Position numbers and translations under genes: made by a program. The notes beneath the pieces were generated by a model. The model did no database searches, was not told the origin of the DNA, and saw only the letters and a program-made list of their open reading frames with translations. Positions 30,555 through 57,478 of a stretch of DNA of 64,000 nt are shown here, in pieces. The stretch comes from Methylolobus aquaticus. GTDB lineage: Bacteria; Pseudomonadota; Gammaproteobacteria; Methylococcales; Methylococcaceae. The DNA lies in contig SEYW01000014.1 of the NCBI GenBank assembly GCA_004168015.1, positions 47,439-111,438 on the forward strand, written 5' to 3'. How positions within the stretch are numbered: the first letter of the stretch is position 1; each line of letters opens with the position of its first letter.

Positions 30555-33500
30555 ATGAAGGATAAGGAAGTTCTTCACCAGCCGATTGTCCTGATCGTCG
30601 ACGATTCGCCCGAGGATCGACACACCTGTCGCACGTTCCTGGATACCGGGTATCGGGTGTCGGAAGCCGACACGGGCCAGGCGGGTCTTGAACTGGTCCG
30701 GCGTCTGAAGCCAGATTGCATCCTGCTCGACTACCGTCTCCCCGATTTCGACGGTCTCGAGTTTCTCGAGGCGCTGCATCAGGACCCGTCATGTGAGCGG
30801 CCCGCGGTGGTGGTGCTGACCGGCCATGCCGATGTGACCTTGGCGGTCGCTGCCTTGCAAGCGGGAGCCAGCGACTTCATCGAGAAGGACCACATCACCG
30901 CGCTATCGATCAAACAGGTCGTGGCCAGGGCCATCAGCAACGTGCAGTTGCGTCGTGACCTCGACCGTCAACGCCAGTGGCTCGATGCGACGTTCGCCGG
31001 CGTTGCCGACGGCGTGGTGGCGGTGGATGCGGCGGGCCGAGTGACGCTGTGCAACCAGGCCTTCGGCGAACTGAGCGGATGGTCACTGGCCGAAGCCATG
31101 GGGCAGCCAATCAATGAGGTTCTGGCGTTCACGCAGGACGGGTCGGCTAGTTATTGGCGGCAGACACTCCGGCAAATCCTGAGCGGTGAGCGGCAGGTAG
31201 CAACGCCCCGCTGGTCGGGCCAGTTGATCGCACGGAATGGGAGCCGGCGTTCGATCGCCTTCAAACTGGCCCCGATCCTCGCCCAGAGCAATACAGACAC
31301 GGGCGTGGTGATCACGCTGACTGATGTCGGCGAGATTGATGAGGCGAGACAGGCCTTGACGGAGCGCGAGTGGTGGCTACGGCTCGCGTTGGAAGCTTCC
31401 GGTGTCGGTTGCTTCGACTGGAACCTGGAGACCGGATCCGTGACCTGTGACCGGCAGCACGAAGCGCTCTGGGGGTTCCGGCCAGGGGAAACGATGGGTG
31501 CCTACGCGGATTTCGCGCGACGCGTCCATCCGGACGACCTGCCCATGGTGGAGGCCGCCGTGGCTCAAAGCCGGGCCGAACGGACGCACTACTGCTGCGA
31601 ATTCCGGGTCGTCTGGCCCGATGGCAGCGAGCACTGGGTGGTCGGTCGGGGCGAGTTTTCCTACCGGGAGGATGGTAGCGCGCTGCGCATGCGCGGCACC
31701 GTGGTCGAAGTGACGCAGCGCAAGCTGGCCGATGCCGCCTTGCAGGCAAGCCGGGAACTGTTGGCAAGGATCATCGAGAGCGCGCCGTCGGCAGTTTTTG
31801 CGATGGATCGCGAGCATCGTTTCACGCTAACCAACCCGGCCCACTTGTCTACCTGTCGGCTGCAGCCGGATGCTCTGATCGGGCGCACCGGACGCGACGT
31901 TTTCCCCGCCGCGACGGCCGAGCGGCTTTGGGCCGACAACGAACAAGTCATGCGTACGGGGCAAGCGTTGCAACTGGAGGAGGAACTGGTCCTTGCCGAT
32001 GGTACCCGTATCGACGTCATCACGATCAAGTTCCCGTTGCGCGATGTGGAGGGCGTGATTGTCGGCATGGGTGGCGTGGCCACGGATGTCTCCGAGCTCA
32101 AGCGTGTGCGGCAGGCCCTGTTTGCCGCCGAGCAGCGCTTCCGCCTGGCGATGGAGGTCACCCAGGATGGAATCTGGGACTGGGATATCACGACCGGGAA
32201 TACCTACTACAGTCCGGCCTATTTCGGAATGCTCGGCTACGAGCCCGGAAATTTCCCCGAATCCTTTGAGACGTGGACCGACTTGTTGCACCCCGAGGAG
32301 CGGGAAGCGGTTACAGCCGGGGCTCTGCACCTGTTGGCGACCGCCGGCGAGTACCAGCTGGAATTTCGAATGCGTACGCGGGCGGGTTCCTATATCTGGG
32401 TCATCAGCCGCGGGAAGGTTGTCGCGAGGGATGCGGAAGGGAATCCCCTGAGGGTGATCGGGACGCATATCGACATCACCGGGCGCAAAGCGGCGGAGCA
32501 GGCACTGAGGATCAGCGAGGAGGGTTTGCGCCTTGCACTGGATGCCGCGCAGATGGGAACGTTCGATTGGGACCTCGTGACCGGGCGTGTCGCTTTGTCG
32601 CCCCGGCAAGAAACGCTCTCGGGCTTTTCGCCCGGCGAGTTCGACGGCACCTACGCGGTGGCAACGCAACGGGTCGACCGTAACGACCTGCCTGCCGTCG
32701 AAAGAGAGTTGGCCCGTTGCCGGGCCGCGCGCGAGCCTTTTTCGTTGGAATATCGCGTGAACTGGCCGGACGGGAGCAACCATTGGGTGAGCGCTCTGGG
32801 CGAATTCGAGTATGCGAGCGACGGTACGCCGCTGCGGCTGCGGAGGGTGACGATGGATGTCTCCGACCGCAAGGCGCGCGAAACGGCGCTACGTGAGGCG
32901 GAAGCATGGCGCCTGGCGTCACGCTACACGCGCTCCCTGATCGAGACGAGCCTGGACCCGCTGGTGACCATCAGCGCCGACGGCGTCATCACCGATGTCA
33001 ATCGAGCGACCGAAGACGCTACCGGATATCCCCGTGCGCAACTGATTGGCAGCGACTTCGCGGACTATTTCACCGAGCCGGCCCAAGCCCGCGCCGTTTA
33101 CCAGCAGGCCTTTGCGGAAGGTCGTGTGCGGGACCAGCAGCTGACCCTCCGGCATACGTCCGGGCAACTGACGGACGTGTTGTACGACGCCTCTGTTGTC
33201 CGCAGCGAAGACGGCGGTATCCAGGGTGTTTTCGCCGCCGCTCGCGACATCACGGCCCGTCTTCGCGCCGAAGCCGCGCTGCGGGTCAGCCAGGCGACCT
33301 TGCAGCGCGCCCAGTCCGTTGGGCAGATCGGCAGTTGGCGTCTGTGTCGCGACTCCGAGGTTTTCGAAATTTCCGAGGAGACGGCCAAGCTGTTCGATCT
33401 CCCGGGTGACCGGCCCGTCAGTTTCACCGAATGGTTCGCTCGTGTTCATCCCGACGATCAGGCGGGCGTTGCGGCGGCCTGGCGGGATGCCTTGCGCGGT

Positions 33501-35258
33501 GCGCCATACGAGAGGGTCTACCGCATCGTCGTTCGGGGTGAGATCTTCTGGATCAGGGCCCTCGCGGAACTGGAGTTCGACGAAAGCGGCACGCTGTTGA
33601 GCGGCGTGGGCACGGCGCAGGACGTCACACGGCTCAAGCGGGCGGAATTCGAGGTCCGGCGAACTGCCCAACGCCTGCAGTTGGCTACCGAAGCGGCGGA
33701 TATCGGAATTTGGACCTGGAGTTTTGCTGATGACCGCCTGAATTGGGACGACCGGCTTTTGGCCTGGTACGAGGTGCCGGACGGCATGCGCGAGACCGGG
33801 CCTGACTACGCATTCTGGCGATCACGGGTTCATCCCGACGATATCGAACGTATAGAAGCCAATTTTTCGGCTGCCAGGCTTGCGCAATCCGTCTGGTCGG
33901 GCGAATTCCGCATCCTGTTGCCGGGGGGGCGGGTCCGCTACATCGAATCGGCCGCGCTGTTCGAATATCACCCGGATGGCGCAGCGGTGAGGATGGTCGG
34001 GATCAACCGCGATGTAACGGCGCAGCGTGCGCTCGAGGAGAACCTCCGGGAGGCGAGGACTGCAGCCGATGCAGCGAACGAGGCCAAAGGTGCTTTCCTG
34101 GCCAATGTGAGTCACGAGATTCGGACACCCATGAATGCGATCCTTGGCTTCGCACAACTGTTGGAGAAGGATGCGCTCACTCCCGAGCAGCGCGGGATGG
34201 TGCGGCGGATACGCACCGCCAGCGAATCATTGATGGGCCTGCTCAATGACATCCTCGACTTTTCCAAGATCGAGTCAGGCCGTTTCGCCCTCGAGCGGCA
34301 GCCCTTCTCGCTCGACGGAGTGTCGTCCAATGTCATCGGACTGCTGCGCTCGATGGCCGTCGGCAAAGGCCTGGAACTGAGGTTCGACATGCCGGCCAAC
34401 TGCGATATCACACTCCTCGGGGACGCGGGCCGACTGGAACAGGTGCTCGTCAATCTGACCAGCAATGCGATCAAGTTCACCGACCAGGGCAGCGTCGAGG
34501 TACGGGTGATCGCGAAGGAGGTGACCGGGACCCAGGCGCGCCTGCGCTTCGAGGTCCGCGATACCGGCATCGGCATCTCGCAGGAACAACAGGACGCCCT
34601 GTTTACGCGCTTCACGCAAGCCGATGGCAGCATCACCCGCCGCTACGGCGGGACGGGCCTCGGGCTTTCCATCAGCAAGCACCTCATCGAAGCAATGGGC
34701 GGAACGCTCGGCTTCGACAGTACCCTGGGCGTCGGCAGCACCTTCTGGTTCGAAGCGAGTTTCCCGCTGGCCCCCGCGGACGCCCTGTTGGAAACGGCGG
34801 TGGCGTCTGCGCCTTTGACCGTGACCGGTCCCAGGCTGAAGGGACTGCAGTGCCTCGTGGTCGACGATAGCGCGATGAACCGCGACCTTCTGCAATACCT
34901 GCTGCAGCGGGAGGGGGCTGAGGTTGACGTTGCCGCCGATGGTCGCGCGGCGCTGGAGTACCTGCGTGCGCGAAGTCAGCCCGTCGATGCCGTTCTGATC
35001 GATCTCCAGATGCCAGTGATGGATGGACTCGAGTTGATCGGTGCAATACGCGGTGAACTCGGTCTGAGCGGGCTGCCTTTGATCGCCGTTTCGGCTGCGG
35101 CGGGACGGAAGCAGCGGCAGGCGGCAGAGAACGCTGGCGCCAACGACTTCCTGCTCAAACCGGTGGACCTGGAGACATTCGTCACCACGCTGCTCCGCTG
35201 GACGCAACCCGCCGTGCCAGTCGTGACGGCGCCGGACCCAAGATCGGGAACGGATTGA
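30555..35258 (+). CDS. Very large cytoplasmic hybrid histidine kinase (REC - about eight PAS - HK - REC)
   Basis: This 1,567-residue protein has no membrane segment. An N-terminal receiver domain (about 10-125, phosphoacceptor Asp59 in [10 protein letters not shown]) is followed by roughly eight PAS-type sensor domains between 140 and 1165. Several are of the PAS_3 kind with HPDD and a final LR..G...DVT motif. The kinase core has the phosphoacceptor His1187 in [17 protein letters not shown], then [10 protein letters not shown] and [17 protein letters not shown]-terminal receiver has Asp1483 in [16 protein letters not shown] four bases before ATG 30555 supports the start. No output regulator is adjacent, so it probably signals to a partner elsewhere through phosphorelay. 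Confidence 0.93.
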
Positions 35259-40704: not shown

Positions 40705-43700
40705 GTGGCAATACATGTCGCCATCGAGCACAGCACCTCTTATCGATACGACCGTACGGTCTCGCTTTCCCCGCATGTGATCCGTCTGCGTCCCGCGCCG
40801 CACGCGCGGACGCCGATACACGATTATCGCCTCGACATCACGCCGGCCGATCACCGCCTGTACTGGCAGCAGGATCCCTTCGGGAACACCATCGCCCGGG
40901 TGGTTTTTCCGGGCAAGGTCGACGAACTGAAGATCGACGTGCGTCTGGTCGCCGAGATGACGGTGATCAACCCGTTCGACTTCTATGTCGAGAAATACGC
41001 CGAGCACTTTCCGTTTCAGTACGAGCCGCTGTTGAAGCGGGAACTCGAACCGTACTTCGAACTGACCGAGAGCGGTCCGAAGCTGATGGCCTGGCTGGAG
41101 AAGGTCGACCGGCGCAAGATGCGGATCGTCGACTTCCTGGTCGCGATCAACCAGCGCCTGAAGGACGACATCGACTACACGATCCGCTTCGATCCCGGTG
41201 TTCAGACCGGCGAAGAGACGCTGACCAAGGCACTCGGCTCGTGCCGCGATACCGGCTGGCTGCTGGTGCAGATCCTCCGCCATATGGGGCTGGCCGCGCG
41301 TTTCGTGTCCGGCTACCTGATCCAGCTGACGGCCGATCAGAAGTCCCTGGATGGCCCCTCGGGGCCCGAGGAGGATTTCACCGACCTGCATGCCTGGGCG
41401 GAGGTTTTCATTCCGGGTGCCGGCTGGATCGGGCTCGATCCGACCTCGGGACTGTTTGCCGGGGAAGGGCATATCCCGCTGGCCTGCACGCCCGACCCGG
41501 TGAGCGCCGCGCCGCTGACCGGCGCCAGCGACAAATGCGAGGTCGAGTTCGGCTACGCTAACGTCGTCAAGCGGGTGCTGGAAGACCCGCGTGTAACCAA
41601 ACCTTACACCGAAGCGCAATGGGCCGATATCCAGCATCTGGGCCATCAGGTCGATGCGGAACTGCGGGTGCTCGACACGCGCCTGACGATGGGCGGCGAG
41701 CCGACCTTCGTTTCGGTCGACGACATGGAAGGTCCCGAGTGGAACACCGAGGCGCTCGGTGCCGACAAGCGGCGGCGCGCCGGCGTGCTGCTGAAACGCT
41801 TGCGCGCGGCCTTCGGCCCCGGCGCCCTGTTGCATTTCGGCCAGGGTAAATGGTACCCGGGCGAGCCATTGCCGCGTTGGGCCCTGGGCTGTTTCTGGCG
41901 CACCGACGGACAAGCCTTGTGGAAGGACGAAAAGCTGATCGCCGATGCCGAGCGCGATTATGGTGTGGGGCCGGAACAGGCCAGAACGTTCGCGGAACGG
42001 TTGACCGAGCGCCTCGGCATCGATCCGAGATACCTGGTCAACGGCTATGAGGACTGGGTCTACTATTTGTGGCGGGAGGCCAACCAACCGGTCAATCTCG
42101 ACCCGATCGCGATTCCCTGGGCACCGCAGTTCCGCGACGACCTGAGCCTGGTGCTGGCGCGCGGACTGGACCAGCCGGTCGGACTCGCGCTGCCCTTGCT
42201 GTGGGACTACGCCGCTGCCGGCTGGCGCTCCGGTCTGTGGCGGTTCGCGCGGGAGCAGATGTACCTGACCCCTGGCGGTTCGCCGATGGGCCTGCGCCTG
42301 CCCACGCACGAACTGCCCTGGGCCGTCGAGGTCGAGCAGGAGGTCCTGATCAGCGCGCCCTCGCCGCAGCGCTCGCCGAACGTCGGAGCCCTGCCCGGCG
42401 CGCGACCCGCCCCAGCCTCGCCCGCGCCGGACGTCCGCGCGCCGCTCGCGGCCGACGAACGGCCGGAGGTCATCCGGCAGCGCTACCGGACCTGGGAGGG
42501 GATCCCGCATACCGCGCTGTGCATCGAACCCCGCGGCGGCTGCCTGCACCTCTTCATGCCGCCGCTGAACACGCTGTGGCATTACGCGAACCTGCTCGAA
42601 GCGATCGAAGCGACCGCGGCCGAACTCGGCCTGCCGGTGCTGATCGAGGGCTACGAACCACCGGGATCGCCGGAACTGAAGGTGCTGAAGGTCACCCCCG
42701 ACCCGGGCGTCATCGAGGTCAACATCCATCCGGCATCGAGCTGGGAGGAACTGGAGCACAACACCGTCACCCTGTACGAGGAGGCGCGCCTGTCGCGCCT
42801 GGCGACCGAGAAGTTCATGCTGGACGGGCGCCATACCGGGACCGGAGGCGGCAACCACGTGACGCTGGGCGGTCCCACACCGCAGGACAGCCCTTTTCTC
42901 CGGCGCCCGGATCTGCTCCGGTCGCTGGTGACCTACTGGCAGCATCATCCCTCGCTGTCGTATCTGTTCTCCGGCACCTTCATCGGCCCCACCTCACAGG
43001 CCCCGCGGCCGGACGAGCGCGGCAGCCGTTTGCTCGCCGAACTGGATGTGAGCCTGCGCGAAATCGAGCACATCGCCGCGCCCTGGCTGCTCGACCGGGC
43101 CCTGCGGAATTTCCTGGTCGACGGCACCGGCAACACACACCGCGCCGAGTTCTCCATCGACAAGCTGTACTCGCCGGATTCCGCTTCGGGTCGGCAGGGG
43201 TTGCTGGAGTTTCGCGCTTTCGAAATGCCGCCGCACGCACGGATGAGTCTGGCCCAGATGCTGCTCCTGCGGGCCATGGTCGCGTATTTCTGGCGCGAGC
43301 CCTATCGGCACTCGCCGGTGCCCTGGGGCACCTCGCTGCATGATCGTTTCCTGCTGCCGCACTACGTCTGGAGTGACTTCGGAACGGTCATCGAGCAGCT
43401 CAAGCGGGCCGGCTATGCCTTCGACCTGGCCTGGTTCGAGGCCTTTCTCGAGTTTCGCTTTCCGGTCTGCGGCCGTGTCCACTACGCCGGTGTCGAACTC
43501 GAACTCCGTACGGCGCTCGAACCCTGGCTGGTGTTGGGTGAGGACGCTACGGCGCACCGTCAGGCGCGGGTGGTCGACTCGGCGGTCGAACGGCTGCAGG
43601 TGCGTTGCCGCAATCTCGATCCGGAGCGTTTCCTGGTCACCTGCAATCGGCGCCGTCTGCCGTTGCAGCCGACGGCCAACAGTGGGGACTATGTCGCGGG

Positions 43701-44073
43701 TGTGCGGTTCAAGGCCTGGAAGGCAGCCTTCGGACTCCATCCTACGGTCGAAGTGCATGCGCCTCTGGTATTCGACATCGTGGACCGGCAGCTGGGCCAT
43801 TCGGTTGGCGGTTGCGTCTATCATGTCGCCCATCCGGGCGGGCGCGCCTACGACACCTTCCCGGTAAACGCCTACGAAGCCGAGTCGCGCCGCGTGTCCC
43901 GTTTCTGGGATTGCGGGCATACCGCCGGCGATGTCCCACCGCCACCCTGGGTCCAGGGTCTTTCCGGGTTTCATGAAGGCAAACTGGCCGCCGCCTGTTA
44001 CGAACCGCCGCCGGAACCACCCAATCCGGACTACCCGTGCACCCTCGATCTGCGCCGCCTGGGGGCCTCATGA
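40705..44073 (+). CDS. Transglutaminase-like / DUF2126 putative amidoligase fusion (intact catalytic residues)
   Basis: This 1,122-residue protein joins a transglutaminase-like cysteine peptidase domain (about 1-300) to a DUF2126 domain (about 310-1122). The Cys180/His229/Asp245 triad is visible in GSCRDTGW, DLHAWAEVF and GLDPTSG. DUF2126 has been proposed to be a glutamine-synthetase-fold COOH-NH2 ligase. Conserved-looking sites are MGGEPTFVS (Glu332), RHTGTGGGNHVTLGG and TGNTHRAEFSIDKLY. The combination suggests making or cutting peptide or isopeptide bonds on a protein or peptide. GTG 40705 with GGAG upstream starts the conserved VAIHVAIEHSTSYRYD. Its stop overlaps the next gene. The typical alpha-E and ATP-grasp partner genes are not adjacent. 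Confidence 0.9.
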   Translation: MAIHVAIEHSTSYRYDRTVSLSPHVIRLRPAPHARTPIHDYRLDITPADHRLYWQQDPFGNTIARVVFPGKVDELKIDVRLVAEMTVINPFDFYVEKYAEHFPFQYEPLLKRELEPYFELTESGPKLMAWLEKVDRRKMRIVDFLVAINQRLKDDIDYTIRFDPGVQTGEETLTKALGSCRDTGWLLVQILRHMGLAARFVSGYLIQLTADQKSLDGPSGPEEDFTDLHAWAEVFIPGAGWIGLDPTSGLFAGEGHIPLACTPDPVSAAPLTGASDKCEVEFGYANVVKRVLEDPRVTKPYTEAQWADIQHLGHQVDAELRVLDTRLTMGGEPTFVSVDDMEGPEWNTEALGADKRRRAGVLLKRLRAAFGPGALLHFGQGKWYPGEPLPRWALGCFWRTDGQALWKDEKLIADAERDYGVGPEQARTFAERLTERLGIDPRYLVNGYEDWVYYLWREANQPVNLDPIAIPWAPQFRDDLSLVLARGLDQPVGLALPLLWDYAAAGWRSGLWRFAREQMYLTPGGSPMGLRLPTHELPWAVEVEQEVLISAPSPQRSPNVGALPGARPAPASPAPDVRAPLAADERPEVIRQRYRTWEGIPHTALCIEPRGGCLHLFMPPLNTLWHYANLLEAIEATAAELGLPVLIEGYEPPGSPELKVLKVTPDPGVIEVNIHPASSWEELEHNTVTLYEEARLSRLATEKFMLDGRHTGTGGGNHVTLGGPTPQDSPFLRRPDLLRSLVTYWQHHPSLSYLFSGTFIGPTSQAPRPDERGSRLLAELDVSLREIEHIAAPWLLDRALRNFLVDGTGNTHRAEFSIDKLYSPDSASGRQGLLEFRAFEMPPHARMSLAQMLLLRAMVAYFWREPYRHSPVPWGTSLHDRFLLPHYVWSDFGTVIEQLKRAGYAFDLAWFEAFLEFRFPVCGRVHYAGVELELRTALEPWLVLGEDATAHRQARVVDSAVERLQVRCRNLDPERFLVTCNRRRLPLQPTANSGDYVAGVRFKAWKAAFGLHPTVEVHAPLVFDIVDRQLGHSVGGCVYHVAHPGGRAYDTFPVNAYEAESRRVSRFWDCGHTAGDVPPPPWVQGLSGFHEGKLAAACYEPPPEPPNPDYPCTLDLRRLGAS

Positions 44074-47000
44074 CGCAACGCATCGCCCTGACCGCCCGGA
44101 TCGCGGAGAACTTCGAGCGCCGGGTACAGCTGTCCACGCATTGGCTGCGACTGCGGCCCGCTCCGCAGGCGGGCGGCATCGAGGCCTATTCGCTGCGGGT
44201 CGACGCCGAGCCGCATTTCCTGAACTGGCTCCGCGACCCCTACGAGAATCATCTGGCGCGACTCGACCTGCCGGAACCGGTGTCATCCCTGGGGTTCGAT
44301 CTCGAGATCATCGCGGCGCTGGAGCCGTCGAATCCGTTCGATTTCCTGACCGATCCCTATGCCGCCAACTATCCGTTCCAGTACCCTGATCAGCTCAGGA
44401 AGGAACTGGTGCCCTATCTGCGGATCGACCAGCCGGGGCCCTGGCTGACGGATTGGCTCGGCAGTCTCGACCGTTCGCCGCAGTACATCGTCGAAAAGCT
44501 AAACGGGATATTGGCCGGCGTCCACCAGCCCATCGCTTCGGTTGGGGAGAGCCGTCCGGGCTGGGTCGACATCGAAGGGCTGCTGGCCCGTGGCTCCGGT
44601 TCCCCCTGGGAAACCGCCTGGCTGATGACGCTGACCCTGCGCGGTCTCGGCCTCGCGGCCCGGTTCACCTCGGGTTATCGGGTCTGGCTGTCCGCAACGG
44701 ATGAACTCCCGGACGTGGTCAGTCCGCATGCCTGGAGCGATGTGTTCCTGCCGGGTGCCGGCTGGATCGGCCTGGATCCGGCCAGCGGCCTATACACCTC
44801 GGAGGGCTACATTCCGCTCGCCTCCGCGCCCGATCCGCTGCGTACCGTGCCCATATCGGGTTACCACGAGGCTTGCCCTAGCGAGATCAGCACCACGGTC
44901 AGCGTACGACGTCTGATCCCCGCGCCGCCCGAGCAGCCGGTGGATGGGGCAGCCTGGCGCGATATTCGGGCCGTTGGCCGGCGCGTCGAAGCCGATCTCG
45001 CGTCGGCCCGCCTGAATCTGACCGTTGGGACCGGCTTGTCCTTCGTTTCGATGGAGTATCCAACGGCAACGGAATGGACGACCGGCGCTCTCGGACCGCA
45101 CAAGCGGCAGATTGCCGAGATGCTGCTGCCGGCACTCGCCAGCCATTGCGGCGCCGGGGGCGTCATGCACATCGGGCAGGGCGAGTGGTTCAGCGGCGAG
45201 GAGCTGCCACGCTGGCGCCTCGGCTGTTATCAGCGGGCCGACGGCCAGCCGATATGGAAGAACCCCGATCTGTTGGCATGGCGCCGCCGCCGGCCGATGA
45301 ACATCCAGTCGGAGGATGTGCGGTTCTTCGCGGAGTCACTGGCGCAAGTGCTGCGCGTCCCGGCGGATCACGTGATGGCCGCTCACGAAGACAGCCTTCA
45401 TCAGTTGTGGGCCGGCCGACTCGGCACCGGGTACATCCCGTCGCCGGCCGATCTGCGGGATCCGGAGCGTCGTCGCGCCGTCGCCGCCTGCCTGTCGAGG
45501 CGTCAGGGCGAGCCCGCGGGCTATGTGCTGCCCTTGCGCTGGGATCGTGTGCTGCAGCGTTGGTCCAGTGGCCGCTGGTCCTTTCGGCGCGAAGGCTTGT
45601 TCCTCATTCCCGGCAAATCGCCGCTGGGTTTCCGGCTTCCCATCGAAAGCTTGCCGGCCGGTGATGCCGGTCCGCTCGATACCGAACACGAACGCTGTCA
45701 GACCGAAGAGCGTTCGCTGCTGCCCCAGGATTGCGGCGAGCTCAGCGCCCGTTATTCGACCGTGGGTCCGCCCAGCGATGCGATGGAGGAGGCCGATGGC
45801 CCCTTGTCCGAGGCTGGCCGCCCCCCGCGCACCGCGCTTGCGCTCGAGTTGCGCGACGGTCAGCTATTCGTCTTCATTCCGCCGCTGACGCATCTCGAGC
45901 ATTATCTGGACCTGATCGGCGCGGTCGAGGCCACCGCGCGCGAGACGGGCATTCCGGTGATGTTCGAAGGCTATGAACCGCCCGAGGATCATCGTCTGCG
46001 GCGGCTGGTCATCGAGCCGGAACCCGGTGTCCTGAAGGCCTGGCTACCGGAGCTGCCGGGCTGGACCGCACAGATGCAACTGGTCGTCGCGGCTTACGAC
46101 GAGGCGGAGCGACTGGGGTTGCGCGCCGAGCGCATCATCGGTGAAGGTCGGCGCGTGCCGCCGGGCGGCGGTGCCGAGCTGACCCTGGGAGGAGAAAATC
46201 CCGGCAACAGCCCGTTCCTGCATCGGCCGGAACTTCTCCGCGACCTGATCGTTTTCTGGCAACGCCACCCGTCCCTGTCCTATCTGTTCGCCGGCCGCCT
46301 GGTCGGTCCGGACGGACCGGCGCCGCGCCCCGACGAAGGTCGCGACGATGCCCTGTACGAACTCGGGCTGGCGCTGGAGCGCGTCCCGAGCGGCGAGAAC
46401 CTGATGCCCTGGGTGCCGGACCGGCTGCTGCGCCACCTGTTGGCCGATCCTGCCGGCAACATGAAGCGCGCCGAGATCCGGATGGATCTGCTGTACGCGC
46501 CGGACCGGCCGAGCCTGCGCTTCGGCAAACTGGTGCTGCGTTCCTTTGAATCGGTGCCGGACCCAAAGCTGGCCGCGCTGCAGTCCCTGCTGGTTTCGGC
46601 ATTGATCGCCGCGCTGGCGAAGAAGCCCGAGGCGGGGCGGTTCATTCGCTGGGGTGAGGCGCTGCACGATCGCTTCATGCTGCCGCGCCTGCTGTGGGAG
46701 GATTTCCGCAGCGTACTCGCGGTGCTCTCCGACGCGGGTTATCCCTTGCAGGAGGAGTGGTTTCTGCCGATCGTCGAGTTACGCTTCCCGGTTCTCGGCA
46801 CGACCCAGATCGGTGACGTCACGCTGGAGTTGCGGACCGCCCACGAACCCTGGGCGCTGCTCGCGGAGGAGAGTTGCGCCGGCGGCGTCACCCGCTTCGT
46901 CGATGCCGCGAACGAGCGGGTGCAGGTGCGTTGCCTCGGTCTTACGCCCGGCCGCTACAGTGTCTTCTGCAACGGCTTCATCGTGCCTTTGCACGAGACC

Positions 47001-47378
47001 GGGATCCAGGGCGAGTACGTTGCCGGCGTGCGGTACAAGGTCTGGAATCCCCCGTCGACGCTGCATCCGACGGTTTACCCGGTCAGCTCACTCGTCGTCG
47101 ACCTGATCGATAACTGGACGCGTCGCATCGCGGGCGGATTTACCTACTATCCGCCCCGTCCCGGCGTGTGGGGTTCGGCCGGTACGTCATGGACCAGTCC
47201 GGCCGTCGATGCGACCCCGCGGCGCCAGCAGCGGCGGCAGCCGTTGACGAACGTGCCGCCCTGGAGTGTCGGTGGCAAGTTCCTGCCGTTCGGCAGCGCC
47301 ACCGAGGTGCCGCCGGTTCCGGTGGAGCACCTGCGGCCGGATGCGCCCTACCTGCTCGATCTGACCCACTGGACCTGA
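44070..47378 (+). CDS. Second transglutaminase-like / DUF2126 fusion with apparently inactivated domains
   Basis: This 1,102-residue paralogue of the preceding gene aligns along its whole length, but key residues are changed. The nucleophile segment GSCRDT becomes GSPWET (Pro179), although His220 (SPHAWSDVF) and Asp236 (GLDPASG) remain. In the DUF2126 half MGGEPTF becomes VGTGLSF (Gly322), HTGTGGGNH becomes RVPPGGGAE and NTHRAEF becomes NMKRAEI. The frame is intact over 3.3 kb, so it is not a pseudogene. It looks like a conserved pseudoenzyme. ATG 44070 overlaps the upstream stop (ATGA), so the two products are probably made together and may form a heteromer. Confidence 0.88.
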   Translation: MTQRIALTARIAENFERRVQLSTHWLRLRPAPQAGGIEAYSLRVDAEPHFLNWLRDPYENHLARLDLPEPVSSLGFDLEIIAALEPSNPFDFLTDPYAANYPFQYPDQLRKELVPYLRIDQPGPWLTDWLGSLDRSPQYIVEKLNGILAGVHQPIASVGESRPGWVDIEGLLARGSGSPWETAWLMTLTLRGLGLAARFTSGYRVWLSATDELPDVVSPHAWSDVFLPGAGWIGLDPASGLYTSEGYIPLASAPDPLRTVPISGYHEACPSEISTTVSVRRLIPAPPEQPVDGAAWRDIRAVGRRVEADLASARLNLTVGTGLSFVSMEYPTATEWTTGALGPHKRQIAEMLLPALASHCGAGGVMHIGQGEWFSGEELPRWRLGCYQRADGQPIWKNPDLLAWRRRRPMNIQSEDVRFFAESLAQVLRVPADHVMAAHEDSLHQLWAGRLGTGYIPSPADLRDPERRRAVAACLSRRQGEPAGYVLPLRWDRVLQRWSSGRWSFRREGLFLIPGKSPLGFRLPIESLPAGDAGPLDTEHERCQTEERSLLPQDCGELSARYSTVGPPSDAMEEADGPLSEAGRPPRTALALELRDGQLFVFIPPLTHLEHYLDLIGAVEATARETGIPVMFEGYEPPEDHRLRRLVIEPEPGVLKAWLPELPGWTAQMQLVVAAYDEAERLGLRAERIIGEGRRVPPGGGAELTLGGENPGNSPFLHRPELLRDLIVFWQRHPSLSYLFAGRLVGPDGPAPRPDEGRDDALYELGLALERVPSGENLMPWVPDRLLRHLLADPAGNMKRAEIRMDLLYAPDRPSLRFGKLVLRSFESVPDPKLAALQSLLVSALIAALAKKPEAGRFIRWGEALHDRFMLPRLLWEDFRSVLAVLSDAGYPLQEEWFLPIVELRFPVLGTTQIGDVTLELRTAHEPWALLAEESCAGGVTRFVDAANERVQVRCLGLTPGRYSVFCNGFIVPLHETGIQGEYVAGVRYKVWNPPSTLHPTVYPVSSLVVDLIDNWTRRIAGGFTYYPPRPGVWGSAGTSWTSPAVDATPRRQQRRQPLTNVPPWSVGGKFLPFGSATEVPPVPVEHLRPDAPYLLDLTHWT

Positions 47379-48431: not shown

Positions 48432-48577
48432 CTGCAATTCACCGTTATTCTGGCGATACCCACTGCGCGGGCGCATGTTAGCACGCGGCGTCGTCTGTGC
48501 TGCGACGGCAAGTCGCGTTGGCGGTGCGCCTTGCCGGAGATGTTCAGGCAATCGTATTGTCACATCCGACGTGTATC

Positions 48578-49801
48578 GTGCCGAAAACCCAAATCCAGAG
48601 GATTCCGGCCCTGAAACACGAACCGACTCTGACCGAACGCGTCGATCAACGAATATTCGACGCGATCTACTCCCGTTCCCTTGTCTACAACACGTGCTGG
48701 GAAGATCCGGCCGTGGACCGCCGGGCCCTGCAACTCGGACCGGACGATAGGATGCTGGTCATCACCAGCGCCGGTTGCAATGTCCTCGACTACGCGCTGA
48801 CAGGTCCCCGCCATATCTATGCCGTCGATGCGAACCCGCGGCAGACCGCCTTGCTGGAACTCAAGCTGGCGGGTATCCGCCGGCTCGATTTCAGCGATTT
48901 CTTTGCGACGTTTGGCCAGGGGTACCACGCTCACTTCCCGGAACTCTACCGGGATCTGCTGCGCGCCGAGCTTTCCGAGTTTGGGCGCGCGTTCTGGGAC
49001 CGTAACGCCGGCTGGTTCGTCAGCCGCCAGGGCAGTTTCTACTACCATGGCCTGTCGGGGCTGGTGGCTCGTCTGTTCCGGACTTATCTGGCGATGCGGC
49101 CGCGACTGGCCGAGCCGGTGCTGGCGCTGTTCGAGACGCAGAACCTCGAGGAGCAACGCCGCCTCTACGACGAGCACATCCAGCCGCAGCTCTGGCACCG
49201 CGGCCTGAACTGGGCTTTGTCCCGGCAACTGACGATGAGCCTGCTCGGGGTGCCGACCGCGCAGCGCCGTGAGGTTCAGGCACAGCATGCCGGAGGCGTC
49301 GCCGGGTTCGTGCGCGACTCGATCGAGTATGTGTTCCGTCAACTGCCGGTCTGGAATAACTATTTCTGGAGCGTCTACGTGCGTGGCCGCTACGGCGAGG
49401 CGTGCTGTCCGGAGTATCTGAAACGCGACAATTTCCTGGCCCTGAAGGGCGGTCTGGTGGATCGTATCAGTGCGCACACCTGCACCGTGACGAGCTTCCT
49501 GCACGCTACGCCCGAGACGCTCTCGCGCTTCGTGTTGCTGGACCATATGGACTGGATGTCCAGTGTGAACCCTGTCGCGCTGCGCGAAGAATGGGAGGCC
49601 ATCCTGGACCGTGCGGCGCCGAATGCCCGCATCATCTTCCGCAGTGCGCACGCGCGGCCGGCCTACCTGGAGCAGCTCGAACTCGGCGGACAGCGTCTGA
49701 AGGACCGGCTGCGGTTCGACGACGCGCTGGCGGCGCGCCTGCAGACCGAGGACCGCGTGCATACCTACGCCGGCTTCCACATTGCCGACGTGCCGACATG
49801 A
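48578..49801 (+). CDS. btaA: BtaA-like S-adenosylmethionine:diacylglycerol 3-amino-3-carboxypropyltransferase
   Basis: This protein of about 407 residues (DUF3419) should attach the 3-amino-3-carboxypropyl group of SAM to diacylglycerol, the first step to the betaine lipid DGTS. The N-terminal VYNTCWEDPAVDRRAL is the family hallmark. The SAM fold follows as MLVITSAGCNVLDYALTGPRHIYAVDANPRQTALLELK. The pairing with a BtaB-like methyltransferase, whose ATG overlaps its stop, strengthens the call. The start is uncertain: no ATG is available, and I list GTG 48578; GTG 48497 would add 27 residues. Confidence 0.88.
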   Translation: MPKTQIQRIPALKHEPTLTERVDQRIFDAIYSRSLVYNTCWEDPAVDRRALQLGPDDRMLVITSAGCNVLDYALTGPRHIYAVDANPRQTALLELKLAGIRRLDFSDFFATFGQGYHAHFPELYRDLLRAELSEFGRAFWDRNAGWFVSRQGSFYYHGLSGLVARLFRTYLAMRPRLAEPVLALFETQNLEEQRRLYDEHIQPQLWHRGLNWALSRQLTMSLLGVPTAQRREVQAQHAGGVAGFVRDSIEYVFRQLPVWNNYFWSVYVRGRYGEACCPEYLKRDNFLALKGGLVDRISAHTCTVTSFLHATPETLSRFVLLDHMDWMSSVNPVALREEWEAILDRAAPNARIIFRSAHARPAYLEQLELGGQRLKDRLRFDDALAARLQTEDRVHTYAGFHIADVPT

Positions 49802-50502
49802 GCGCCGCGTCCGATTTGCGGGTCGTGCTGCACATGCTCCGGGGCATGCCGCGCAGTGGCGATGCGGCATCGCGGCTGCAAGCGTTTTACGCGCCGCAGG
49901 CCTCAGCCTATGACGACTTCCGCGAGCGCCTGCTGCAAGGCCGCCGCGAGTTGATCGAGCAACTCGAACTGCCGCGGTGCGCCCGCGTCGTGGAACTCGG
50001 GGCCGGCACGGGCCGCAATCTGGATCACTTCGGCCAGCGGCTCAACGCGTTCGAATCGGTGGACCTGGTCGACCTGTGTCCGGCGCTGCTGGCCGAGGCC
50101 CGGCAGCGCGCGGCGCCGTTTCCGAACGTGCGGGTGGTCGAGGGGGACGCGACGAGCTATCGCCCCGCGCACTCCGTCGACTGCGTGATCTTTTCATACA
50201 GCCTGACGATGATCCCCGACTGGAACGCCGCGCTGGGCAACGCCATGGCGATGCTCAAGCCGGGCGGCTTGCTGGCCGTTGTTGATTTCACCGTTTCTCC
50301 ACAGCAGGGCCGGCTGGCCAGCCTGTTCTGGCGCGCGTGGTTCGGCCACGATGGCGTGCGACTGAACGCGGAGCATGTGAGCGCTCTCCGCGGGCTATGC
50401 CGTGACCACGCGGTCGAAGAGCGTCGAGCGCCGATTCCTTATCTGCCGGGCCTCCGGGTGCCGTACTACCTGTTCATTGGTCGCGCCGGGTTCGCCGCAT
50501 AA
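49798..50502 (+). CDS. btaB: BtaB-like SAM-dependent N-methyltransferase
   Basis: This 234-residue class I methyltransferase should add three methyl groups to the amino nitrogen of diacylglyceryl homoserine to give the betaine lipid. Motif I is VVELGAGTGRNLDHF and the acidic loop is DLVDLCPALLAEAR. The segment IFSYSLTMIPDWNAAL resembles known BtaB proteins. The ATG overlaps the btaA stop by four bases, so the enzymes are coupled. In bacteria these lipids usually replace phospholipids under phosphate limitation. Confidence 0.88.
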   Translation: MSAASDLRVVLHMLRGMPRSGDAASRLQAFYAPQASAYDDFRERLLQGRRELIEQLELPRCARVVELGAGTGRNLDHFGQRLNAFESVDLVDLCPALLAEARQRAAPFPNVRVVEGDATSYRPAHSVDCVIFSYSLTMIPDWNAALGNAMAMLKPGGLLAVVDFTVSPQQGRLASLFWRAWFGHDGVRLNAEHVSALRGLCRDHAVEERRAPIPYLPGLRVPYYLFIGRAGFAA

Positions 50503-53352: not shown

Positions 53353-53395
53353 GCAAATGATGCTGATTGCACATGTAAATGCGACCGGATATCAT
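53353..53395 (+). promoter_or_regulatory. Fur-like box overlapping a candidate promoter of the siderophore locus
   Basis: Bases 53353-53371 match the 19-base E. coli Fur consensus at 11 positions. TTGCAC (53367-53372, 3/6) and TATCAT (53390-53395, 5/6) are spaced by 17 bases and would form a sigma-70 promoter whose -35 lies under the Fur site. This is the only A/T-rich patch in a 600-base gap, and it points at the acylase gene. The match is moderate, so this is a prediction. Confidence 0.4.
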
Positions 53396-53593
53396 CTGGG
53401 TTCAAATCTTGTCCAGATGGACCGTGCCGCGCAAAGAATCCAATGTCCCGTTTTGAAAATCAAGGACAGCCCCGAGTCCGAGTGCATTGGTTGGGGTGCT
53501 TCTGTAGGCAATACGGCAGGTCGTTGCGTCAGGTCATCCGGCGCTTCGCCCATGGGGTTCCTTCGTGATCGCATGGGTGGCGGAGTTCGCGCC

Positions 53594-55948
53594 GTGAAGA
53601 TCTGGGTGATCGTCTTGATGCTGGTGAGTGCCCGCGCCGGCGTCGCTGCAAGTGAACATTCTCGCGCCGTCAAAGGCATTGCCGCCTCGGTGGAGATCGT
53701 TCGCGACGGGGAGGGGATACCCCATATCTTCGCGGACACCGAAGCCGATGCGTATTTCGCGCTGGGCTACGTGCACGCGGAAGATCGTCTCTGGCAGATG
53801 GAAATGAACCGGCGCTCGGGGTCGGGGACGCTCGCCGAACTGTTGGGTGCCTCGGCACTGTCTGAGGATCGTTTGATCCGAACCGTGGGATTGAGACGTG
53901 TGGCGCAGGCCAATCCACCGCACTTGGATGCCGCGACACGGGAGATCCTCGCCGCGTACGCCGCCGGCGTGAATGCTTACCTGGGGCAGGTCACGGTGCT
54001 GCCGCCCGAGTTCCTGGTGGCTCGCACGACACCTCTGCCGTGGAGTCCGGAGGACTCCCTGACCTGGATGAAAATGATGGCGTGGACGCTGTCCGGCAAC
54101 TGGTGGGAAGAGTTGCTGAATGTCCGTCTGCGTGAACAGCTCACGGCGCGCCAGGTGGCAGAGCTGCTGCCGCCTTATCCCGGCGATCAGCCTCGGCTGC
54201 TGCCCGATCCCGGGGGTTTGTACGGGTTTCAGTCCAATCGCGCCGACGCGCTGCTGGCGGTGGGCTCCCGCAGCCGACCGCATAGCCGCGGCTCCAACAA
54301 CTGGGTCGTCAGCGGGGCCAGGACGAAGCATGGCAAGCCCTTGCTGGCGAATGACCCGCATACCCGGCTCAGCGCGCCTTCACTCTGGTACTTCGCGCAT
54401 CTGCACGCTCCGGCACTGAACGTCATCGGGGCCACGTTGCCTGGCGTGCCGGGGGTATTCCTCGGTCGCAACGAGCGTGTCGCGTGGGCTTTCACGAACA
54501 CCGGCTCGGACACGCAGGACCTCTACGTCGAACGACTGGTTGACGATGAGGGTGACCGCTACGTCACGCCGGGCGGAGCGGCGCCCTTCGAGCGTGTCGC
54601 GGAACGGATAGCGGTGCGTGGCGCCGCGGCCGAGACGCTGCCGGTGCGGATGACCCGGCACGGCCCGGTCATCTCGGATGTTGTCGAAGAGGCGGCCGGC
54701 CTCAGCCCGCGCGGGTCGGTCATTGCCCTCGGCTGGGTCGGACTGAGGTCCGACGATCTGACGGCGCAGTTCATGCTGCACGCGGCGAAGGCCCGCAGCG
54801 CGGGTGAGTTGCGCGAGGCCGCGCGCTTCCTGCATACCCCGCAGCAAAACGTCGTGTTTGCGGACGTGGATGGCACGATTGGTTTCGTTGCGGCGGGCCG
54901 CGTGCCCGTCCGCAAGCCGCGGAACGAGTTGATGGGCCTGATGCCTGCGCCGGGCTGGGACGAGCGTTACGACTGGGATGGTGTGATCGCTTTCGAGCAA
55001 CTGCCGGCGTTGGGCAATCCACCAGATGGAAAGATCGTGACGGCCAACCAGAAGGTCACACCGCCCGACTATCCGTTCTGGATCACCTCCGGTTGGTTTC
55101 CGCCCTATCGCGCGGATCGCATCGCCGAACTCCTGGACCGCACCCCTCGGCATGACATCGCCTCCTTCGCGGCGATCCAGTCGGACGTCAAGAATCCGGT
55201 GGCCGGGCAACTGCTGTCCGATCTGCTGCAATGGGAGCCCGTCGGCGCGAAGGAGCGAGCTGCCGTGGCCGCTCTGCGGGCATGGGACCGCAGGATGACG
55301 ACCGATAGCCGGGAAGCTTTACTTTTCGTGGAGTGGCTCCGGCAGCTCGACGGCGTCCTGCTGAAGGACCGGCTCGGCGAACTGTACCAATGGCTGGACG
55401 ACTACAACCCGGTGTTCCTGAAGAACGTGCTGAGTCGCCATGATGACCCCTCAGGCTGGTGTGGACCGCCGACGTCCGATGGCCAGCCGGCCTGTCGCAA
55501 GGTCGTGGAGTCGGCGCTGAGCTTGGCGCTGGCCGAGCTCGAGCGTCGGTATGGCTCGGATCAGTCGCGGTGGTCATGGGGGCGGGCACACGTGATTCGC
55601 TCCGGGCATCTGCCCGCCGGTGCGCTCGGATTCCTCGGGCGCTGGCTGGATTTTCGGATTCCGGGGCCGGGGGGGCGAGATACCGTCAATGTCAGCGGTT
55701 ATGCCTTCGATCCCGAATCCGGTCTGTACGTAGGAGATACCGGGGCGAGTTTCCGGGCTATTTATGACTTGGGCAACCCGGATGAGTCAGTCTTCATTCT
55801 GAACACGGGGCAGTCGGGAAATCCATTGTCTTCCCATTATGGCGACATGGTCGACGACTGGCGCGATGGGCGCTATGTCCCGATGCGCACGGATCGGCGA
55901 GCGATCATCGAACACGCCAGGGATCGCTTGATCCTGAGTCCGGGTTGA
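53594..55948 (+). CDS. Periplasmic penicillin acylase-family (PvdQ-like) amidohydrolase
   Basis: This 784-residue N-terminal-nucleophile hydrolase precursor is expected to self-cleave into two chains. A signal peptide is present (MKIWVIVLMLVSARAGVAA). SVEIVRDGEGIPHIFADTEADAYFALGYVHAEDRLWQMEMNRR is the classic alpha-chain start. Ser234 in GSNNWVVSGARTKHGKPLLANDPH would be the new N-terminus of the beta chain and the nucleophile. GTG 53594 is chosen for the GGAG eight bases upstream and the signal peptide; ATG 53573 and ATG 53552 are alternatives. In pyoverdine synthesis PvdQ removes the fatty acyl chain in the periplasm. The downstream fatty-acyl ligase NRPS makes that role likely here. Lactone or penicillin cleavage cannot be excluded. 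Confidence 0.88.
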   Translation: MKIWVIVLMLVSARAGVAASEHSRAVKGIAASVEIVRDGEGIPHIFADTEADAYFALGYVHAEDRLWQMEMNRRSGSGTLAELLGASALSEDRLIRTVGLRRVAQANPPHLDAATREILAAYAAGVNAYLGQVTVLPPEFLVARTTPLPWSPEDSLTWMKMMAWTLSGNWWEELLNVRLREQLTARQVAELLPPYPGDQPRLLPDPGGLYGFQSNRADALLAVGSRSRPHSRGSNNWVVSGARTKHGKPLLANDPHTRLSAPSLWYFAHLHAPALNVIGATLPGVPGVFLGRNERVAWAFTNTGSDTQDLYVERLVDDEGDRYVTPGGAAPFERVAERIAVRGAAAETLPVRMTRHGPVISDVVEEAAGLSPRGSVIALGWVGLRSDDLTAQFMLHAAKARSAGELREAARFLHTPQQNVVFADVDGTIGFVAAGRVPVRKPRNELMGLMPAPGWDERYDWDGVIAFEQLPALGNPPDGKIVTANQKVTPPDYPFWITSGWFPPYRADRIAELLDRTPRHDIASFAAIQSDVKNPVAGQLLSDLLQWEPVGAKERAAVAALRAWDRRMTTDSREALLFVEWLRQLDGVLLKDRLGELYQWLDDYNPVFLKNVLSRHDDPSGWCGPPTSDGQPACRKVVESALSLALAELERRYGSDQSRWSWGRAHVIRSGHLPAGALGFLGRWLDFRIPGPGGRDTVNVSGYAFDPESGLYVGDTGASFRAIYDLGNPDESVFILNTGQSGNPLSSHYGDMVDDWRDGRYVPMRTDRRAIIEHARDRLILSPG

Positions 55949-56146: not shown

Positions 56147-57478
56147 ATGAAAGGAATCCTGGACATTGCAGGTATCGGAATCGGTCCGTTCAACCTGAGT
56201 CTGGCCGCCCTGATGGCACCCCTGTCCGAGGTGTCGGCGCGCTTCTACGAGCGGCGCCCGAGCTTCGATTGGCACCCGGGGATGATGCTTCCCGGAACGC
56301 AGATGCAGACGTCCTTTCTGAAGGATCTGGTGACGCCGGTCGACCCGACCAGCCCCTACGGTTTCCTGGCTTACCTCGTCCGCAAGGGTCGCTTTTATCG
56401 GTTCGTCAATGCCGATTTTCCACGCGCCAAGCGAGCGGAGTTTGCCGACTACCTCCGCTGGGTGTCCGAGCAGGTGCCGAATCTGGTCTTTCGGAAGAGC
56501 GTCGAGGAGGTCAGCTTCGACGACCAGGGGTTCCTGCTCTCCTTCGGCGAGGCAGCACCACAGCGTAGCCGCCATCTGGCCGTCGCGATCGGTCATCGGC
56601 CCCATGTGCCGGATTGGGCGCGTTCTCACCTCGGCCGGCATTGCCTGCACAGCCACAGCTACATGACCGCACCGCTATCCGTCGAGAATCGCCGCGTCAC
56701 CATCGTCGGGGGAGGGCAGAGCGGTGCCGAGATTTTCCTCGACCTGATGGGCGGAACGCGCGGCCGGCCGGTCGACGTCGTCTGGGTGACGCGCCGCCCG
56801 GGCCTCGATCCGCTTGATGAGACGGCGTTCACGAACGAATACTTCACGCCGGATTACGTGCGGCATTTCCACCGACTGCCCGAATTGCATCGGCACAACC
56901 TGGCGACGGCGCAGAAGCTGACCGGGGACGGTGTGTCCCCGGCCACGTTGCAGGCCTTGTCGCAGTACCTGTATGAACGGGATTTCCTGGACGTGGACGG
57001 TGCCAGGGTGCCCTACCGGATCATGACGCACCGCGAGGTCCGGGGCATGGCCCGTGAGCGGACGGGCTTTCGCCTGGACATGGCGAACGTGTTCGATGAG
57101 TCCCCGGAGCACATCGGCGCCGACATCGTGATCCTCGCGACCGGTTATCGATACGCCTGGCCGGAATGCCTGGCGCCCCTGGATGCGCACATCGAGCGGG
57201 ACGGTCAGGGCTTTCCCATCCTGTCCGAGGACTATGTCGCCCGCTGGGACGGCCCGGCAGCACATCGGATCTACATGCTGAATGCCGGGCGTAATAGCCA
57301 TGGTGTTGCCGATGCGCAATTGAGCCTGACCGCGTGGCGCTCTGCGGTGATCATCAACAGTCTGGTTGGTCGGGCGGTCTATGCCGTTGACCCGCAGCCT
57401 TCCCCGGTGCATTGGTCCGGGGGGAGACCGGACAGTCAGGCCGGCGGGCTGGAACCCCGGCTGCAGGTTTGGAAATGA
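56147..57478 (+). CDS. IucD/PvdA-family L-lysine or L-ornithine N-monooxygenase
   Basis: This 443-residue flavoenzyme hydroxylates the side-chain amino group of lysine or ornithine, the first step to a hydroxamate. The FAD site is IAGIGIGPFNLSLAAL (residues 7-22) and the NADPH site is VTIVGGGQSGAEIFLDLM. ATGYRYAWPE lies near the C-terminus. The stretch FDWHPGMMLPGTQMQTSFLKD and the later DETAFTNEYFTPDYV look closer to lysine N6-hydroxylases (IucD type) than to PvdA. GAGG eight bases before ATG 56147 supports the start. The ATG of the acetyltransferase overlaps its stop. Confidence 0.92.
   Translation: MKGILDIAGIGIGPFNLSLAALMAPLSEVSARFYERRPSFDWHPGMMLPGTQMQTSFLKDLVTPVDPTSPYGFLAYLVRKGRFYRFVNADFPRAKRAEFADYLRWVSEQVPNLVFRKSVEEVSFDDQGFLLSFGEAAPQRSRHLAVAIGHRPHVPDWARSHLGRHCLHSHSYMTAPLSVENRRVTIVGGGQSGAEIFLDLMGGTRGRPVDVVWVTRRPGLDPLDETAFTNEYFTPDYVRHFHRLPELHRHNLATAQKLTGDGVSPATLQALSQYLYERDFLDVDGARVPYRIMTHREVRGMARERTGFRLDMANVFDESPEHIGADIVILATGYRYAWPECLAPLDAHIERDGQGFPILSEDYVARWDGPAAHRIYMLNAGRNSHGVADAQLSLTAWRSAVIINSLVGRAVYAVDPQPSPVHWSGGRPDSQAGGLEPRLQVWK

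Follow-up and report, generated by a model that had tools for sequence, protein, structure and literature searches.

The tandem A'-B locus

Two overlapping genes for transglutaminase-DUF2126 fusion proteins, here termed A' and B, lie in a stretch of 64,000 nucleotides of Methylolobus aquaticus (assembly GCA_004168015.1, contig SEYW01000014.1, positions 47,439 to 111,438 of the forward strand). This stretch, referred to as the window, comes from contig C9 in an assembly of 3.39 Mb that is 89.5% complete; the host is very likely methane-oxidising. The two proteins show the same three domains, in the same order and at the same length, as the transglutaminase-DUF2126 proteins of Anbu operons (PF08379 + PF01841 + PF09899), which are called canonical A below. 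The locus is organised as follows.

40705..44073, + strand: A', transglutaminase-DUF2126 fusion of 1122 amino acids, GTG start, all named motifs intact
44070..47378, + strand: B, paralogue of A', 1102 amino acids from the ATG at 44070, amidoligase motifs changed and the transglutaminase Cys replaced by Pro
44070..44073, + strand: ATGA overlap of 4 bases, formed by the stop of A' and the start of B

Both frames are open over their whole length, and the proteins share 41% identity. The Pfam models Bact_transglu_N, Transglut_core and DUF2126 score above their curated cut-offs in each, with 1200 bits for DUF2126 in A' and 820 in B, so that by domain content both belong to the fusion family. The frame of B as listed opens at 44037; because its near-copy P0003 and other homologues begin at an MT.RIALT motif, the start was assigned to the ATG at 44070. 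A protein from Methylotetracoccus oryzae is 99% identical to A'. No NCBIfam model matched A' or B, and no solved structure related by sequence was found for A', the only query in that search. With B as query, plasmid records gave 233 matches, all below 60% identity (best 40.8%).

Motif residues of A' and B

The motifs compared, in the order in which they occur in each protein, are these.

41236..41250, + strand: GSCRD of A', including Cys180; GSCRD is present in 80/80 canonical A loci (L009-L088)
41692..41709, + strand: GGEPTF of A', starting at residue 330 and including Glu332
42709..42732, + strand: VIEVNIHP of A', with Glu671 and Asn673
42832..42858, + strand: HTGTGGGNH of A', starting at residue 710, with Asn717 and His718
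43132..43152, + strand: NTHRAEF of A', starting at residue 810, with His812
44598..44612, + strand: GSPWE of B, with Pro179 for Cys
45027..45044, + strand: GTGLSF of B (residue 320) for GGEPTF
46029..46052, + strand: VLKAWLPE of B for VIEVNIHP (Glu becomes Lys; 130/132 B have Arg or Lys)
46152..46178, + strand: RVPPGGGAE of B (residue 695) for HTGTGGGNH
46458..46478, + strand: NMKRAEI of B (residue 797) for NTHRAEF

A preliminary description of this DNA had reported two coupled proteins of about 1,100 residues with one architecture, the first keeping Cys180, His229, Asp245, GGEPTF, HTGTGGGNH and NTHRAEF, the second having Pro179 and GTGLSF in an intact frame; all of this agrees with what we find. 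Its further statement that B has lost the His/Asn-rich motifs applies to HTGTGGGNH and goes too far for NTHRAEF, of which B retains N, R, A and E and loses the His. The Cys-His-Asp triad of active papain-like transglutaminases is complete in A' (Cys180, His229, Asp245), whereas B in the window keeps His and Asp and has Pro for Cys. Further motifs read LHA in A' and PHA in B, LDP in both, GQGKWYPGE versus GQGEWFSGE, and LLEFRAF versus KLVLRSF. Eight polar motif residues, chosen after seeing which motif positions B changes, are all present in A' and all absent from B in the window. Judged by these residues, whose catalytic role we infer, A' would qualify as an active member of the family and B only as a paralogue.

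Conservation of the replaced residues

The counts come from aligned rows, 164 of A type and 132 of B type; the near-copies P0003 and P0123 were excluded. GGEPTF served to tell A' from B at pair loci, in agreement with the tree. A reference set of 32 canonical A rows was taken from GGEPTF-bearing open reading frames, of which each of the 80 loci L009-L088 has one, and from L148-L155; the exact string TGTGGGNH occurs in 67 of those 80 loci. All eight polar motif residues are present in 164/164 A-type proteins. By contrast, none of the eight is left in 116 of the 132 B rows, one in 14 and two in 2; the residues retained are Glu332 (7 rows), Lys382 (1), Glu671 (0), Asn673 (1), Asn717 (0), His718 (0), His812 (7) and Glu835 (2). 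Since they are common to 132 B sequences, the changes are not a matter of chance.

With B as query 235 proteins were obtained; the near-copy of the window's own B is among the best 120. In the remaining 119, position 671 is never Glu and is Arg or Lys in 117. None has the whole GGEPTF, and two rows, P0118 (labelled Pirellulaceae) and P0119, have a Glu at that place. In the transglutaminase half of the same proteins, His is kept in 115/119 and Asp in 119/119, while the Cys position is mostly Pro or Ala. Over all 132 rows Cys is kept in 17, and in 16 of these together with His and Asp. The loss of Cys is not universal, and hence only the amidoligase half is constantly changed in B. Rows with Cys, either kept or regained, are P0030, P0051, P0057, P0066, P0072 and 12 more; their amidoligase motifs are changed.

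The counts were extended to all columns in which at least 99% of A-type proteins have one residue (211 columns, 88 polar and 123 other), omitting the B of L147 from these counts and from those of B-specific residues. Columns kept in fewer than 10% of B make up 28 of the 88 polar and 17 of the 123 other columns (Fisher p 0.002). From these column counts the named motifs go in B, while the fold and many polar positions stay.

Conservation of the pair

Within the host's own family, 13 of 38 genomes, the host's included, carry an intact B, in each case directly downstream of A' and on the same strand; two more hold B fragments at contig ends. In the class sample 63 of 369 genomes had a match, and besides the host three genomes of three other families carry A'-then-B pairs. 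No pair was found outside the host's family in the order sample (101 genomes, 48 with a match) or the phylum sample (398 genomes, 103 with a match; two candidates scored per genome), so that the pair appears rare and patchy.

These family, class, order and phylum searches returned 86 loci as sequence, which are the best-scoring matches and not all of them: 16 with A' and B, 2 in which B runs off a contig end and 68 best matching canonical A. The last group comprises 63 loci with a frame of at least 1000 amino acids, 3 split or cut copies and 2 transglutaminase-only proteins of about 300 amino acids, and no B was seen in the fetched flanks of any of the 68. Among the 86 loci A' never stands without B, and B stands without A' only at contig ends. 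In the sampled genomes, all 16 intact B adjoin A' on its downstream side, as would be expected had the second copy always sat beside the first. The frames overlap by an ATGA-type junction in 11 of 13 pair loci and are separated by 90 bases in L143 and 238 in L146. A contig scan for B yielded at least 80 loci, all holding a single canonical A but lacking B, and these therefore served as a reference for A only.

Beyond these genomes, 28 of the 120 listed B proteins share the longest-contig size of their source record with one of the 120 listed A proteins, compared with 0.35 matches on average when the sizes were shifted by 1 to 50 either way. The matched records include some labelled Polyangiales and Pirellulaceae, which are metagenome bins where pairing is read from record sizes and not from base-by-base adjacency; in one of them the two tags, RL701_4467 and RL701_4468, follow each other. 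Canonical A occurs alongside the pair in five genomes of genus g13 (G024, G027, G028, G029, G030); hence the pair does not always replace canonical A. In this genus a MinD/ParA-like protein of 231 to 249 amino acids is encoded directly upstream of A' (L137:8757-9506; also L138, L139, L140, L141, L144).

Phylogeny and selection

In a tree of 126 proteins B forms a single clade with a value of 100 in the Shimodaira-Hasegawa-like approximate likelihood ratio test (SH-aLRT), and a mixture-model tree of 44 rows likewise gives B as one clade. All 41 A' are nested within canonical A, in a group of 46 rows with support 93 or, drawn more widely, of 49 rows with support 100. Five A-type rows entered without neighbour information complete the group of 46; P0213, one of the five, is the A' of L147. 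Constraining A', three near-A' rows and B to group together in the 44-row tree gave a log-likelihood 1.9 higher (approximately unbiased test, p-AU 0.53). On these trees, the split of B may lie within the A' lineage or before it.

Distances among A' and among B are correlated with r 0.94 over 36 pairs, a value reached by 0 of 2000 permutations, and the B distances are twice those of A'. This mirror-tree comparison omits 5 of the 41 pairs, namely four near-copies and L147, which has a long branch. Over seven overlapping genome pairs, the ratio of non-synonymous to synonymous substitution rates (dN/dS) spans 0.06-0.17 in B, against 0.035-0.10 in A', with synonymous sites near saturation in the distant pairs. 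No stop codon lies inside B in the 16 intact pairs. Taken from dN/dS, the ratio of distances and their correlation, B is a constrained protein that evolves faster than A' and is inherited with it.

B has near-invariant residues of its own: Pro23 of A becomes Thr, Thr664 becomes Glu and Arg698 becomes Gly. Conversely, at six positions at least 95% of the 41 A' share one residue that is rare in the 32 canonical A. One of these six, the aligned helix position 786, is Gln in 28/32 canonical A, Glu in 41/41 A' and Arg in 115/132 B. Such a change would suit a new contact between A' and B, and is offered as a lead chosen after looking.

Structure prediction

The DUF2126 halves of A' and B are predicted to have a glutamine-synthetase fold, and the N-terminal halves a transglutaminase fold. 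For the DUF2126 half of each protein a structural match to the glutamine-synthetase fold was obtained. As compared with glutamine synthetase and gamma-glutamylmethylamide synthetase, both proteins differ in being fusions of 1100 amino acids, with a weak Foldseek match and no usable sequence-profile match.

Relation to the Anbu system

Iyer et al. in 2009 reportedly made the original prediction of a four-gene system of Anbu, alpha-E, ATP-grasp and transglutaminase proteins. The preliminary description had noted that the usual alpha-E and ATP-grasp neighbours are absent. In the window this is so, since no alpha-E, ATP-grasp or Anbu gene lies beside the pair; elsewhere it does not hold. The same assembly has alpha-E and CP_ATPgrasp_2 adjacent on contig C37 and two Anbu-like genes on C1 and C19, so that at the level of the genome all components of the Anbu system are present. 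In three relatives the pair lies next to some of them: Anbu is directly upstream of the pair in L143 and L146, and in L193 (genome G001) alpha-E and ATP-grasp genes lie beyond a B fragment, on the opposite strand. An alpha-E match was found in 18/18 genomes that carry B or a B fragment. An Anbu, ATP-grasp or alpha-E gene flanks 48 of the 63 full-length canonical A loci within the sequence fetched.

Roles in peptide synthesis and protein tagging have been proposed for the Anbu system (available text of PMC5666114 and PMC6376114). PMC6376114 detected neither peptidase nor amidase activity in Anbu and no specific complex among the proteins of the operon; the one activity seen was release of phosphate from ATP by the ATP-grasp protein. 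The same paper calls the physiological substrates of the system unknown, and PMC5666114 names substrates and interactors as a future task.

A' falls within the diversity of canonical A and has all eight residues. The flanks of the 63 full-length canonical loci hold no B, whereas here a changed paralogue follows and the Anbu-type neighbours are elsewhere. Relative to the four-gene system, this genome has Anbu, alpha-E and ATP-grasp, and differs in that the operon is dispersed and an extra, apparently non-catalytic subunit is encoded.

The host also encodes a solo DUF2126 protein of 706 amino acids on contig C15 (L005:8307-10427, - strand, genome G000), in which the HTGTGGGNH motif is changed. 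It resembles B in its DUF2126 half and in the change of some motifs, and differs in having no transglutaminase domain and in keeping EINSAP and NSHRAEL, which are changed in B. Full-length relatives occur in 6 of 41 genomes, all six with the A'B pair; one is encoded directly upstream of A' in L208, and the family is large elsewhere. With this one adjacency and a large family elsewhere, the solo protein as a third subunit was set aside as a lead.

Other genes in the window

An EF-G-like gene lies upstream of the pair. Downstream, after a gap, come genes for a DUF3419 protein and then a methyltransferase (48497-50502, + strand), which resemble the BtaA-BtaB betaine-lipid pair. Further away the window encodes a hybrid sensor kinase of 1567 amino acids with a response regulator and several PAS domains (30555-35258, + strand), a penicillin-amidase-type protein (53357-55948, + strand) and a lysine/ornithine N-monooxygenase (56147-57478, + strand). 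A role in defence was rejected, as no PADLOC model matched A' or B.

Discussion

The pair, one paralogue intact and the other changed, is real and conserved, and is a variant of the Anbu-associated ligase rather than a new kind of system. Relatives of the two genes adjoin in every sampled genome with an intact B and diverge in step, and therefore B is likely a non-catalytic partner of a live A'. We regard it as probable, with considerable room for doubt, that A' is the working enzyme and that the two are subunits of one hetero-oligomer in which B would hold, complete or activate A' and would not itself form amide bonds. According to this model, an ancestral A would have associated with itself; after tandem duplication A' would have kept the chemistry, while B became a dedicated structural or regulatory subunit. 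The residues replaced in B would be ligands of metal, ATP or substrate, and the pair would serve peptide ligation by the Anbu / alpha-E / ATP-grasp system, with the remaining components encoded elsewhere in the genome.

The inactive partner proposed in the preliminary description thus retains its core, in that B is conserved, of single origin and devoid of the amidoligase residues wherever found. Its question whether the second copy always lacks the same residues is answered positively where the amidoligase motifs are concerned; the Cys is lost in most B but persists in some.

Several observations weigh against this interpretation. Of the 88 invariant polar columns, 37 persist in 90% or more of B, and B may therefore still bind a ligand; likewise, where the full triad survives the transglutaminase half may catalyse. 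Of the 36 mirror-tree pairs, 27 rest on matched longest-contig sizes, and correlated trees are also expected from joint inheritance as one unit without contact. Foldseek supports the glutamine-synthetase fold only weakly by its own E-values, 0.0055 with A' and 0.0018 with B, and hhalign of DUF2126 against 30 glutamine synthetases from relatives gave no alignment usable for placing the replaced residues (probability below 1%). As regards the Anbu system, 10 of the 38 family genomes have Anbu and alpha-E without a full-length transglutaminase-DUF2126 protein (G005, G006, G008, G009, G010, G011, G013, G014, G015, G016). The system thus persists without its usual ligase fusion, and Anbu and alpha-E need not work with A. 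Finally, co-expression of an Anbu operon gave no specific complex with Anbu, according to the available text of PMC6376114.

The retained polar columns, together with the near-invariant residues peculiar to B and the purifying selection on it, would also fit a neofunctionalised protein that acts alone, for instance as a binding protein or as an enzyme whose site is new, and stands beside A' through a shared pathway. This we consider unlikely, given that every intact B adjoins A' and none occurs without it in the sampled genomes, that most junctions overlap, and that divergence is correlated. It is improbable, too, that B works through its transglutaminase half, with the changed amidoligase half carried along as a passenger or used as a docking module. 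His and Asp are nearly always conserved and Cys accompanies them in the 16 rows with a full triad, yet the window's B and 114 other rows of the 132 are without Cys, mostly having Pro or Ala, and hence transglutaminase activity cannot be the general function of B. To B as an inhibitor that holds A' off until a signal, instead of a scaffold or activator, we assign a slightly lower probability still: the same genetics would result, as a dead paralogue may cap or poison an oligomer, and the present data do not separate inhibition from activation. A decaying duplicate, a pseudogene in progress, is hardly credible. Divergence twice as fast as that of A' would speak for it, but the dN/dS values and the intact frames speak against it, as does the occurrence of B in four of the families sampled and in bins that carry labels of other phyla.

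Hetero-oligomers of the proposed type are familiar from the trypanosomatid prozymes of AdoMetDC and deoxyhypusine synthase and from the QTRT2 subunit, where a dead paralogue is kept with an active one. Here, too, the changed paralogue is conserved together with the intact one; the families are unrelated, and activation by B would be an analogy only. A parallel in domain content is RloB of Pseudomonas, an inactive transglutaminase domain in an ATP-grasp operon, which is described as fused to seven transmembrane helices and for which the available text of PMC12239564 mentions neither a DUF2126 half nor an active twin. No earlier description of a tandem or dead copy of transglutaminase-DUF2126 was found among the listed titles and abstract openings of the literature searched; a prior mention is possible, most likely in Iyer et al. 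2009.

Extending the hetero-oligomer model, one lineage of the glutamine-synthetase-fold Anbu peptide ligase may have split into a live and a dead subunit that work only as a heteromer. The dead subunit would now determine activity, the choice of substrate or assembly, and position 786 would mark the new interface; we put this forward tentatively, at somewhat less than an even chance. The Anbu system is widespread and proteasome-related. If in some lineages its ligase needs a non-catalytic partner, A' and B would be a concrete pair to co-purify, canonical A alone and A'B would provide a natural comparison for finding the reaction, and a glutamine-synthetase-fold case would be added to the prozyme-like systems.

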